The notes beneath the pieces were generated by a model that had not been told where the DNA came from, ran no database searches, and saw nothing but the letters and a program-made list of their open reading frames with translations. This document shows positions 15,126-34,622 of a DNA stretch of 36,753 nt, piece by piece. The position numbers and the translations under genes were made by a program. The stretch is from the NCBI GenBank assembly GCA_013388455.1, contig JACAFF010000017.1, positions 69,252 through 106,004 on the forward strand, given 5' to 3'. The first letter of the stretch is position 1. Each line of letters starts with the position of its first letter. Source of the stretch: Nitrospirota bacterium. GTDB taxonomy: Bacteria; Nitrospirota; Thermodesulfovibrionia; Thermodesulfovibrionales; SM23-35.

Positions 15126-15254
15126 ATGGAAAAAAAGGAGTTTCTGAAGGATTCTGCTGATAAAAGAAAGGTTGTAATATATATGATAAAGAAGCATACG
15201 GGAGCGACAAACAGGGACACATCCCATTTTCTTGACACTCAACTTAAAAATTAG
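15126..15254 (+). pseudogene. Remnant resembling the C-terminal helix-turn-helix of a REP-type transposase
   Basis: The short frame reads KRKVVIYMIKKHTGATNRD, which resembles the C-terminal HTH segment found in one branch of Y1/REP-associated transposases (pattern IYL-x-KK-x-TG-x-TN-x-E-I-G). It then runs into the inverted repeat at 15209-15231 and stops at 15254. No ribosome site or N-terminal domain is present. The best reading is the tail of an older element into which the current one landed. The match is short, so this is a moderate call. Confidence 0.45.
15209..15231 (+). repeat. Left 23-bp inverted repeat of the Y1 transposase unit
   Basis: This 23-mer is the exact reverse complement of 15936-15958. 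Its centre GGGACACATCCC can itself fold as a small hairpin (GGGA/TCCC), as REP sequences recognised by this transposase class do. Confidence 0.85.
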
Positions 15255-15265
15255 TAATATTTTTC

Positions 15266-15937
15266 ATGCCGAGGATTAGGCGGGCAGTCGCAGCAGGATT
15301 TCCACACCATGTAATACAAAGAGGAAACAATCGCGAAATTGTTTTCTTCGATTCAGAGGACCGAAAAAAATATTTATCACTACTTAAGAAATACTCTGTT
15401 AAGTGGAAATCTCCAATAATATCATACTGCCTCATGAGTAACCATATTCATCTTTTGACGATACCGGAGTCTGATGAATCATTGTTTAAAATGATGCAGG
15501 GTCTTACCCTCTGCTATACGCAATATATAAACAGGATGTATCAGCGGACAGGAAGACTATGGGAAAGCCGTTACCACTCATGCATTGTTGATAAGGAGAA
15601 ATATTTATGGGCTGTTGCCCGATACATCGAGCAAAATCCAGTACGCGCAGGGATAGTCGAGAAAGCTGAAGATTATCCTTATTCCAGTGCACAAGCCCAT
15701 GTAAACGGGGGCAAGGATTCTGTTTTGGGAAAAGACCTCTTCAGTAATGATCAGAGAGAAAACTATATACTCTTATTGCGCTCTGAGATACCTCGAGAAG
15801 AAATAGATCATCTGCGATACGCAACAAGAACTGGAAGACCTTTTGGTAATGAGGTATTTGTAGTCGAGATGGGAAAGAAGCTTGAAAGAAGGCTATTAAA
15901 TCGCCCCCGGGGAAGACCAAAGAAGGAATTACCCTGA
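15266..15937 (+). CDS. REP-associated tyrosine (Y1) transposase
   Basis: The 223-residue protein begins MPRIRRAV with HHVIQRGNNR near residues 14-23. It has the metal-binding HIH at residues 60-62 (CLMSNHIHLL) and the catalytic Tyr120 in ARYIEQNPVRAGIV. It ends in a basic tail, RPRGRPKKELP. HUH/Y1 enzymes cut single-stranded DNA at hairpins and form a 5'-phosphotyrosine link. All catalytic residues are present, so the enzyme may be active. Its stop lies 2 bases ahead of the lipoate ligase ATG, so the two could be translated from one message. Confidence 0.93.
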   Translation: MPRIRRAVAAGFPHHVIQRGNNREIVFFDSEDRKKYLSLLKKYSVKWKSPIISYCLMSNHIHLLTIPESDESLFKMMQGLTLCYTQYINRMYQRTGRLWESRYHSCIVDKEKYLWAVARYIEQNPVRAGIVEKAEDYPYSSAQAHVNGGKDSVLGKDLFSNDQRENYILLLRSEIPREEIDHLRYATRTGRPFGNEVFVVEMGKKLERRLLNRPRGRPKKELP

Positions 15938-15958
15938 AAATGGGATGTGTCCCTGTTT
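15936..15958 (+). repeat. Right 23-bp inverted repeat, containing the start codon of the lipoate ligase gene
   Basis: It is the exact reverse complement of 15209-15231. The ATG at 15940-15942 lies inside it, and the first six or so codons of the downstream gene (MGCVPV) are repeat sequence. Confidence 0.85.
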
Positions 15959-16755
15959 TATTCTGGCGGTTTATTGATTCAGGTCCATGTAGCGCTGCGT
16001 ATAATATGGCTTTGGATGAGGCAATAGTTACTAATGTAAGGAAAGACCTCTCACCTCCTGTTTTGAGAATATATGAATGGGACAGGCCATCGGTAAGTAT
16101 AGGAGCTTTCCAGAAGACAAGCGATATAGATTTTGACTACTGCGTTAAAAATAATATTCCCATTGTCAGAAGGTTAACCGGCGGTCGTGCAATTTTACAT
16201 AAAGATGAGATTACTTACAGTTTTTCAGCAAAAACATTAAACGGCATATTCTCCAAAGGTCTGTTCGATAGTTACAAAAAGATATGTCTGGCTCTTAGCC
16301 ATGCATTCACTGAAATTGGCCTTGTAACTCAATCAAAATTATGCAAAAAAAATCTGAAACAACATATCCAAACGATACGCAATCCTTTATGCTTTCATTC
16401 AATATCCTATGGAGAAATCATGATAAATGGAAATAAAATTGTAGGTTCCGCACAAAAGCGATGGCCTGACGGTATGCTCCAGCAGGGTTCTATCCCTCTT
16501 TTGATTGATAATAGCGAAATGTTAAGAATATTCAGACTTAGCAATTCACAATTAAAACAAAAAACTATAAATGGTCTGAAAGAAATATTGCCAGAGCTAC
16601 ATTATATTGATTTAAAAAATGCAATTTATTCCGCTTTCGAAAATATCTTTAACATTCAGTTTATTATTTCATCACCCTCACAGGAAGAAATTTCTTTTGC
16701 AAAGGAACTCGAAGAGAAAAAATATAACTCAAAAGAATGGACTTTTAAACGATAG
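15940..16755 (+). CDS. Lipoate-protein ligase / LipM-type octanoyltransferase
   Basis: The 271-residue protein has FWRFIDSGPCSAAYNMALDEA at its start, RRLTGGRAILH near residue 80, CFHSISYGEIMINGNKIVGSAQ near 150, and LQQGSIPL. These are the BPL/LPL fold motifs that attach octanoate or lipoate to E2 or GcvH lysines. The Cys before F in NPLCF matches the place of the LipM catalytic Cys, so an octanoyltransferase is possible; LplA-type ligase is the alternative. The first residues (MGCVPVL) come from the transposon end, and no other ATG, GTG or TTG precedes the conserved WRFIDSG. The next Met is inside the conserved MALDEA, so translation must begin at the repeat-encoded ATG. A weak AAGGA stands 13 bases upstream. 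Confidence 0.88.
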   Translation: MGCVPVLFWRFIDSGPCSAAYNMALDEAIVTNVRKDLSPPVLRIYEWDRPSVSIGAFQKTSDIDFDYCVKNNIPIVRRLTGGRAILHKDEITYSFSAKTLNGIFSKGLFDSYKKICLALSHAFTEIGLVTQSKLCKKNLKQHIQTIRNPLCFHSISYGEIMINGNKIVGSAQKRWPDGMLQQGSIPLLIDNSEMLRIFRLSNSQLKQKTINGLKEILPELHYIDLKNAIYSAFENIFNIQFIISSPSQEEISFAKELEEKKYNSKEWTFKR

Positions 16756-32969: not shown

Positions 32970-34622
32970 TTATATCAAAACATCTTCCTTTAACAAATCA
33001 AACTGCGCTGTAATCTTGTTTTCAATAACACATTGAAGCATTTCGAGTTCATCAGCCTCGAACCATGTAATATTACAAATCTTACAGTGATCAATTTCGA
33101 TCAGATATGCAAGGCTGTAAAAAGTCCTTAACATAGGGTTCTTACATTTCGGGCATAAAGTTAAAGCTCTCGCAATCACATCTTTTCCTTTCAATTTCTT
33201 TATGGTAAATTTCTTTTGGTTATCTGCTATTATAGCTCTTGCCAGTAATTTTATCCTCTCAGCGCATTCTTTTTCTTTTCTAACTATTATTCTTGGAATC
33301 CTGGTATCTTCGACCAGGGTTCCTCTACAGAATATACACTGATATACTTTAGTCCTTTCATAAGGTATCTCAATAAGTGGTTGTCTGCATAAAGGACACT
33401 GGAATGCTGAGGGCTCTCGTTTACTCTTATTAATCTGGTTTTTGAACATTAAACCAAATAAAGGATTTTCTGAAGCTCTTTCAACCCCTGTCTCTTTGTC
33501 AGACTTAATCCACGTCATAGGTAAGAGCCACGACAAAGTAAAAAGTTCTTCGGCTGTATATGGCCCTTGCCATTGATTTTTTTGATCAAGAGCATAATAT
33601 TGTTTATACATACCTGTTGAAAATACTGGAGTTTTTGACTCTGAATTGAGTCTTCTATCCATATCAGCCATGCTTACATGCACCATATTTAACAAAATCT
33701 CTATTCTCTTTTTTATAGGTGGATGTGTTGACATTAGGTTTGACCAGAATCCCTCGTATTCATCCAGTTCATTTTTCTGAGGGTTTATTATACAAAGCAT
33801 TTCGAGCCCACTTCCTATCAGCCCTGCTCCCCTCCAGTTACGTCCGATTAGATGTAAAGCCTCCGCCATAGCCAATGGGTTACGCGTCATCCGAACCGAG
33901 GCTGCATCTGCCCTGTACTCACGTTCTCTGGATATAAGCATACTCAGAATCTGACTAAACTTTACCAGTATCCAGAAAAAAAGAAACGCAGGGTGCAATC
34001 CACGTTTATCTTCTTCTCCTAAGTCCTGAAGTTTATCAAGCATAGCAGCATACATTCCAAAAAGACTGGTTGCAACAGTAGTTTCCATACAATCACCAGA
34101 GAGTATATGATATGCTTCATGTGCCACTACTGCTTCTGTCTGTGACCTTGTTAACCTTGAGAGCAAACCCTCGGTTATTGCAATAGCTGCGTTCCCTTTC
34201 AAATCTGCTACTGCAATTGCATTCATAGAAAGTGTTGGAATAACCATACAATGAATTTTTTTTTCATAACCAGTCACAACATGTATTTCATCTACAATGT
34301 TTTTAAGACGCCTGTGTATTCCATCTTCAGGATCAGGAGGGATTGCTTCGAGATTATTCATTACTGTCTGCACAGCATCTGCTGCAGAAAACCAGAAATG
34401 GATCGCAGCTATAATTAACGAAAAACCAAATATCCCCAGAAGATAAAAAGGATTGACGAATAAAAAGATGGAACCAGTTTTCATAAAATAAACCGGGAAA
34501 AGGAGGAAAATTCCCTGGATTAATGCTGTTGTTGCAAGGAAATACATAATTAAGAGAATAAGAAAGAAGATCCCTATTCTCCATGTCTTCTGTTTTTCTA
34601 TATCAATATAGGTTAACGGCAT
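32970..34622 (-). CDS. HtpX-like M48 membrane metalloprotease with GYF-like and zinc-ribbon C-terminal domains
   Basis: The 550-residue protein has two hydrophobic segments (about residues 15-45 and 50-80), then the protease domain with AHEAYHILSGD (HEAYH at 168-172) and third ligand in SREREYRADAASV. LMSTHPPIKKRIEIL follows. After residue 340 a GYF_2-like segment appears (YYALDQKNQWQGPYTAEEL), then cysteine pairs CPLCRQPL, CIFCRGTL, CPKCKNPM and CKICNITWFEADELE, the last being like zf-TFIIB. The plan suggests a membrane quality-control protease with a cytoplasmic zinc-ribbon sensor (inference). It is 7 bases downstream of lemA, a pairing seen in other bacteria. Confidence 0.85.
   Translation of the reverse strand: MPLTYIDIEKQKTWRIGIFFLILLIMYFLATTALIQGIFLLFPVYFMKTGSIFLFVNPFYLLGIFGFSLIIAAIHFWFSAADAVQTVMNNLEAIPPDPEDGIHRRLKNIVDEIHVVTGYEKKIHCMVIPTLSMNAIAVADLKGNAAIAITEGLLSRLTRSQTEAVVAHEAYHILSGDCMETTVATSLFGMYAAMLDKLQDLGEEDKRGLHPAFLFFWILVKFSQILSMLISREREYRADAASVRMTRNPLAMAEALHLIGRNWRGAGLIGSGLEMLCIINPQKNELDEYEGFWSNLMSTHPPIKKRIEILLNMVHVSMADMDRRLNSESKTPVFSTGMYKQYYALDQKNQWQGPYTAEELFTLSWLLPMTWIKSDKETGVERASENPLFGLMFKNQINKSKREPSAFQCPLCRQPLIEIPYERTKVYQCIFCRGTLVEDTRIPRIIVRKEKECAERIKLLARAIIADNQKKFTIKKLKGKDVIARALTLCPKCKNPMLRTFYSLAYLIEIDHCKICNITWFEADELEMLQCVIENKITAQFDLLKEDVLI

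Follow-up and report, generated by a model that had tools for sequence, protein, structure and literature searches.

Transposon ends are usually regarded as promoter donors or gene breakers. In the draft record of an uncultured Nitrospirota bacterium (44 contigs; genome completeness, 99.4%), the reading frame of an enzyme gene opens within the terminal repeat of a transposon, which raises the question of whether a transposon end can supply the start codon, the first residues, and possibly the expression of a host gene. We analyzed the surrounding stretch of 36,753 nucleotides (here termed the window), in which the locus comprises the following features.

15126 to 15208, plus strand: left host flank, possibly with the lost native 5′ end of the enzyme gene (from joined flanks)
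15209 to 15231, no strand: left terminal inverted repeat (TIR), 23 bp, core GGGACACATCCC
15232 to 15260, plus strand: predicted transposase promoter on the inner side of the left repeat (TTGACA at 15232-15237, 17-nt spacer, TAATAT at 15255-15260; consensus match)
15266 to 15937, plus strand: intact gene for a Y1 (HUH) transposase of 223 amino acids (aa), IS200-like/REP-associated type (PF01797, E = 2.5e-16)
15923 to 15927, plus strand: Shine-Dalgarno-like AAGGA in the C-terminal codons of the transposase gene, 12 nt before ATG 15940
15936 to 15958, no strand: right TIR with the outward starts ATG 15940 (enzyme frame), ATG 15945, and GTG 15947, one per frame
15940 to 15957, plus strand: repeat-derived first six codons, MGCVPV (from repeat and open reading frame [ORF] coordinates and the N-terminus comparison)
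15940 to 16755, plus strand: intact gene for a LipM-type octanoyltransferase (LplA/LipB fold) of 271 aa (PF21948, E = 5.8e-28)

The two repeat arms, 23 nt each with 704 nt between them, were 100% complementary, and the right arm contained ATG 15940, as the initial annotation had stated. The transposase stop codon (TGA, 15935-15937), of which the last two bases already lie inside the right repeat, is followed by AA and then by ATG 15940, confirming the 2-base distance between stop and start that had been noted; this ATG opens the 271-aa frame. Codons 1 to 6 fall entirely within the repeat and codon 7 (TTA 15958) starts with its last base, in agreement with the earlier reading of MGCVPV as repeat sequence. 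The claim that no other start precedes the conserved FWRFIDSG was likewise borne out: ATG 15940 was the sole ATG, GTG, or TTG in this frame from the stop upstream of it to the conserved Trp9 (in WRFIDSG), and the next downstream ATG encodes M23, within the conserved NMALDEA motif. The 22 nt preceding ATG 15940 yielded a duplex energy of -6.6 kcal/mol compared to a background mean of -3.2 (standard deviation, 2.9), with a long spacing (12 nt) between AAGGA and the start. These sequence features support the view that the only plausible start codon of the lipM-type gene, along with its first residues, comes from the transposon end.

This view also withstood a comparison with 96 distinct relatives of the LipM-type protein. 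Neither MGCVPV (0/96) nor the repeat core within 200 nt upstream (0/96) was present in any of them; therefore, the present N terminus derives from the insertion. In the relatives, the nearest start was mostly located 3 to 5 codons before Trp9, typically in the form M[T/S][D/N]xWRFID. A true empty site was sought among the relatives and not seen, the nearest being only 62% identical members of the same family from other genera. When the flanks of the element were joined, ATG 15183 (or 15126) came into frame with the enzyme only upon removal of exactly 748 bp (MIKKHTGATLFWRF or a longer form), while joins with 746, 749, or 750 bp removed gave no in-frame start. The left flank may thus hold the lost native 5′ end. 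The element boundary is not fixed to the base, because host loops vary between the mnmE and ruvC copies of the repeat (described below) and the same sites in congeners or relatives. The left flank (GGGAGCGACA) bears some likeness to ATGAGTGATATA of one relative (L015), which we regard as weak. Several relatives (e.g., L015, L020, L021, L027, and L040) displayed a TATAnTT-like box about 4 to 9 nt before the ATG of the enzyme gene, and this position suggests leaderless messages for the gene in these organisms.

The product had initially been named a lipoate ligase. We abandoned this name, since the invariant Cys151 and the similarity to the Bacillus group point to an octanoyltransferase instead. 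The cysteine was invariant across 97 aligned sequences, Bacillus-group homologs among them, and in Bacillus subtilis LipM the nucleophile is a cysteine near position 150. The protein consists of an LplA/B-type catalytic domain without the LplB part. Matches to LipA and GcvH were found in the same genome, in which a search for a second LplA/LipB-family gene, including LipB, gave none. On these sequence grounds, a LipM-type octanoyltransferase is the best reading of the product; LipM is not limited to Firmicutes (PMC10332631). Conserved residues were nearly all kept, including the invariant C151 and K166, with the exception of C116, which is a serine in relatives. Since no other LplA/LipB-family gene was found in this 99.4% complete genome, matches to LipA and GcvH are present, and the conserved residues are nearly all retained, the gene is probably in use. 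In an AlphaFold model of the 271-aa protein (mean pLDDT, 91.4), residues 1 to 6 formed a coil ahead of the first strand (E7-17), and the new six-residue tail encoded by the repeat should therefore be tolerated.

How could such a gene have survived the insertion? We consider it probable that a TIRtron-like element cut off the native lipM start and that ATG 15940 now serves as the start, by way of a joint transposase-lipM message and termination-reinitiation; while the arrangement of repeat, stop, and start is read directly from the sequence, we infer the cotranscription, the reinitiation, and the functional protein. A TIR-flanked Y1 single-strand transposon of about 750 bp would have landed at the very 5′ end of the genome's only lipM-type gene or slightly within it and removed the native start. 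The frame would have stayed open because the right repeat brings outward start codons in all three frames, and ATG 15940 would have become the start, with the six-residue tail replacing the usual M[T/S][D/N]x. A single two-gene message for transposase and lipM would then arise from the transposase promoter, and ribosomes ending the transposase at TGA 15937 would reinitiate two bases on, at ATG 15940, aided by AAGGA.

TTGACA, the 17-nt spacer, and TAATAT directly precede the transposase start, with the ATG 5 nt after the TAATAT box, and thus imply a near-leaderless message. No terminator was predicted between the transposase and the lipM-type gene. Since TTGACA was found immediately inside the left repeat at 13 of the 14 left ends of the family and is joined here by a -10-like box, a near-leaderless start, and this lack of a predicted terminator, a dependence of lipM expression on the transposon is plausible. 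RNA folding was calculated for two messages. With the RNA begun at the transposase start codon, the A and U of ATG 15940 were about 75% unpaired, although a small GGGA/UCCC hairpin still lay over the start region; in a read-through RNA from outside, which contains both repeats, ATG 15940 was held in a 23-bp helix (unpaired probability, 0.00). The predictions suggest that folding acts as a filter by which outside read-through RNA buries the start and the internal message exposes it. During translation of the transposase, the ribosome would unwind either structure.

Other readings of the locus differ in how the gene is expressed or in whether it is expressed at all. ATG 15940 might be used, but on a short message of lipM alone that begins at an outward promoter in the 3′ part of the transposase gene, with no coupling. 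Outward promoters are common near insertion sequence (IS) ends, as with the ISAba1 Pout that drives a truncated adeS (PMC3498117), and AAGGA ahead of ATG 15940 would serve such a message as well. However, a promoter scan gave no second strong plus-strand site near the transposase 3′ end, and the sole other plus-strand site (15455) was weak and within the number expected by chance, so that we regard this reading as rather unlikely. Somewhat less likely still is that the insertion inactivated the gene, leaving a young pseudogene in which the frame opening from the repeat is a coincidence. In favor of this, the two repeats do not differ and the transposase ORF is unbroken, so that the insertion may be too recent for decay to have set in. 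Against this stand the retained conserved residues (C116 excepted), the lack of any other LplA/LipB-family gene while LipA and GcvH matches remain, and the recurrence of the same pattern at an alkD-like gene (see below).

Translation could also begin at a nonstandard or upstream codon, the repeat ATG then encoding an internal methionine. The frame is indeed open to the previous stop and includes CTG 15934 and ATT 15928, but both codons are rare as starts, whereas ATG 15940 lies 2 nt past the transposase stop. We consider them less likely starts than ATG 15940 and this explanation highly improbable; even if it were true, codons 15940 to 15957 would still be repeat encoded. The coupled use of ATG 15940 thus remains our preferred reading.

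The repeat family (core GGGATGTGTCCC) was present in 57 of the 395 Nitrospirota genomes sampled, and a reversed-pattern control gave almost no matches; therefore, the repeat in the window is no chance match. In the genome that holds it, the 18-base core was matched exactly at both ends of the element and at one solo site and nowhere else, and no second intact transposase copy was found there, which makes a repeat-driven misassembly unlikely. The insertion could occur in only a part of the population. A decayed second transposon copy was observed in the same genome (G000 contig 31, about 33860-34550; L116, L004), 44% identical and with several stops but with recognizable repeat ends. Full elements of the family are roughly 740 to 790 bp long, and the family also includes far shorter pairs of repeats, whose starts are in some cases about 50 to 60 bp apart. 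The transposase in the window shared 50 to 82% identity with those of 13 other elements; its score against NF047646 (REP-associated tyrosine transposase) was 75.8 bits, below the curated cutoff of 80. The bases just after the repeat core were often tandemly repeated in the flanking DNA (L152, L153, L144, and L147), in units such as TGTATTTT or TTGTTTTC, which may reflect a target or cleavage rule.

The closest known group is TIRtron/TIRYT (Di Nocera et al. 2013, PMC3733652; subclass 2.1 of Quentin et al. 2018, PMC6006769), with which the element shares one Y1 transposase gene between terminal inverted repeats and small dispersed repeats or dimers elsewhere. The PF01797 match is accompanied by perfect 23-bp repeats without GT[AG]G, which are thus not GTAG REPs, and the end motif AGGGACAC fits 7 of the 8 positions of GGGGWSAS, a motif shared by some TIRs. 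A C-terminal HTH-like domain of subclass 2.1 (Bac_DnaA_C, HTH_23, or HTH_28) was found in none of four family members at E values up to 5, and the element is therefore filed as TIRtron-like only and not as TnpA-Y1 subclass 2.1. The family is a TIR-flanked Y1, "TIRtron"-like one that has spread through Nitrospirota.

Repeats supplying start codons are not reported in the searched text of PMC3733652 and PMC6006769, and in the limited open-access literature we found related precedents only and no report of a start codon made by a Y1 repeat or an IS. GTAG REPs provide flanking ORFs with stop codons, and REPs also occur inside genes (PMC3733652). Both systems are Y1-associated palindromes that give translation signals or codons to host ORFs; theirs is a TAG stop, whereas here it is a start codon with an N terminus. 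Rickettsia palindromic elements are small palindromes read in frame inside host genes (PMC10969869), and our family likewise has in-frame copies inside mnmE and ruvC; in contrast to such internal insertions, the full element in the window replaces a 5′ end. As in the ISAba1-adeS case, the downstream part of a gene would stay expressed after the insertion, but ISAba1 gives a promoter (Pout), and the truncated protein made there corresponds to the C-terminal transmitter portion of AdeS (PMC3498117), while nearly the whole enzyme is kept here. What this locus adds to these precedents of a general kind (REP stops, Rickettsia palindromic elements, and ISAba1-adeS) is a repeat that seems to give the start.

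Two points had escaped the initial annotation: the arrangement recurs in another genome, and repeats of the family usually offer a start in each of the three frames. On contig 61 of G036, an intact 224-aa transposase has a TAA stop adjoining the right repeat, and a GTG in this repeat opens a 227-aa AlkD-like frame. As far back as the previous stop, this frame has no other ATG, GTG, or TTG, and three relatives of the ORF, about 62% identical, have N termini of their own. As judged from the sequence, the AlkD-like gene is a second, independent start capture by a right repeat, so that host genes are started by 2 of the 13 transposase-linked right ends examined. (The names AlkD, MoaC, RuvC, MnmE, and TolB-like come from sequence recognition and homolog searches, not from profile matches.) Outward start codons in all three frames were present at 138 of the 203 repeat ends of the family; they are worth noting yet no proof of selection, because 3.7% of shuffles of the repeat have them too. 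The transposase stop was located within 6 nt of the right core at 10 of 13 right ends.

A transposon end thus seems to give the start codon and N terminus of a probably indispensable enzyme gene and, in a second genome, likewise of a repair gene. This would be a concrete route by which a selfish element inserts into the beginning of a needed gene, leaves it functional, and becomes hard to lose, and start-site annotation beside such elements will be wrong or surprising. A bolder idea, to which we assign a low probability, is that the family carries a portable start-codon cassette made up of its own promoter, a stop abutting the end, purine-rich codons before the end, and a start in every frame. 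If so, insertion at a gene front would put the host gene under the transposon's translation, the cost of insertion would be lowered, and the element would be locked in place once the gene is needed; captures such as those of lipM and alkD would recur above chance, and the three-frame starts would be kept by selection.

Further apparent captures among the 203 ends were set aside, namely, those of a TolB-like lipoprotein (L235), MoaC (L237), a secreted protein (L148), and a signal-peptide protein (L144), which are ambiguous because another start lies nearby or the copy lies inside a gene. Genome G368, in which the repeat pattern matched more than 80 times when 3 mismatches were allowed, contains two of these: a start within a repeat pair precedes the TolB-like lipoprotein signal (MGRVPIFLAGAALAGGLLAGC; L235 near 1231) in one and an N-terminally shortened MoaC (L237 near 1257) in the other. 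Short copies were also observed within genes. A paired-repeat copy lies in frame inside mnmE (L129:1500-1600; G041 contig 8) and adds a IRDTSHIFENIRRKVDINMGCVPN-type peptide; at this position, a different loop of 36 nt is present in three congeners. Another lies in frame inside the repair gene ruvC (IRDTSHICGSISRKVDTNMGCVPN; L180:1270-1345; G223 contig 28) and resembles an intragenic insertion of a Rickettsia palindromic element. Two more short copies are read in frame through apparent sensor/histidine kinase genes (L192 near 1257 and L228 near 1261).
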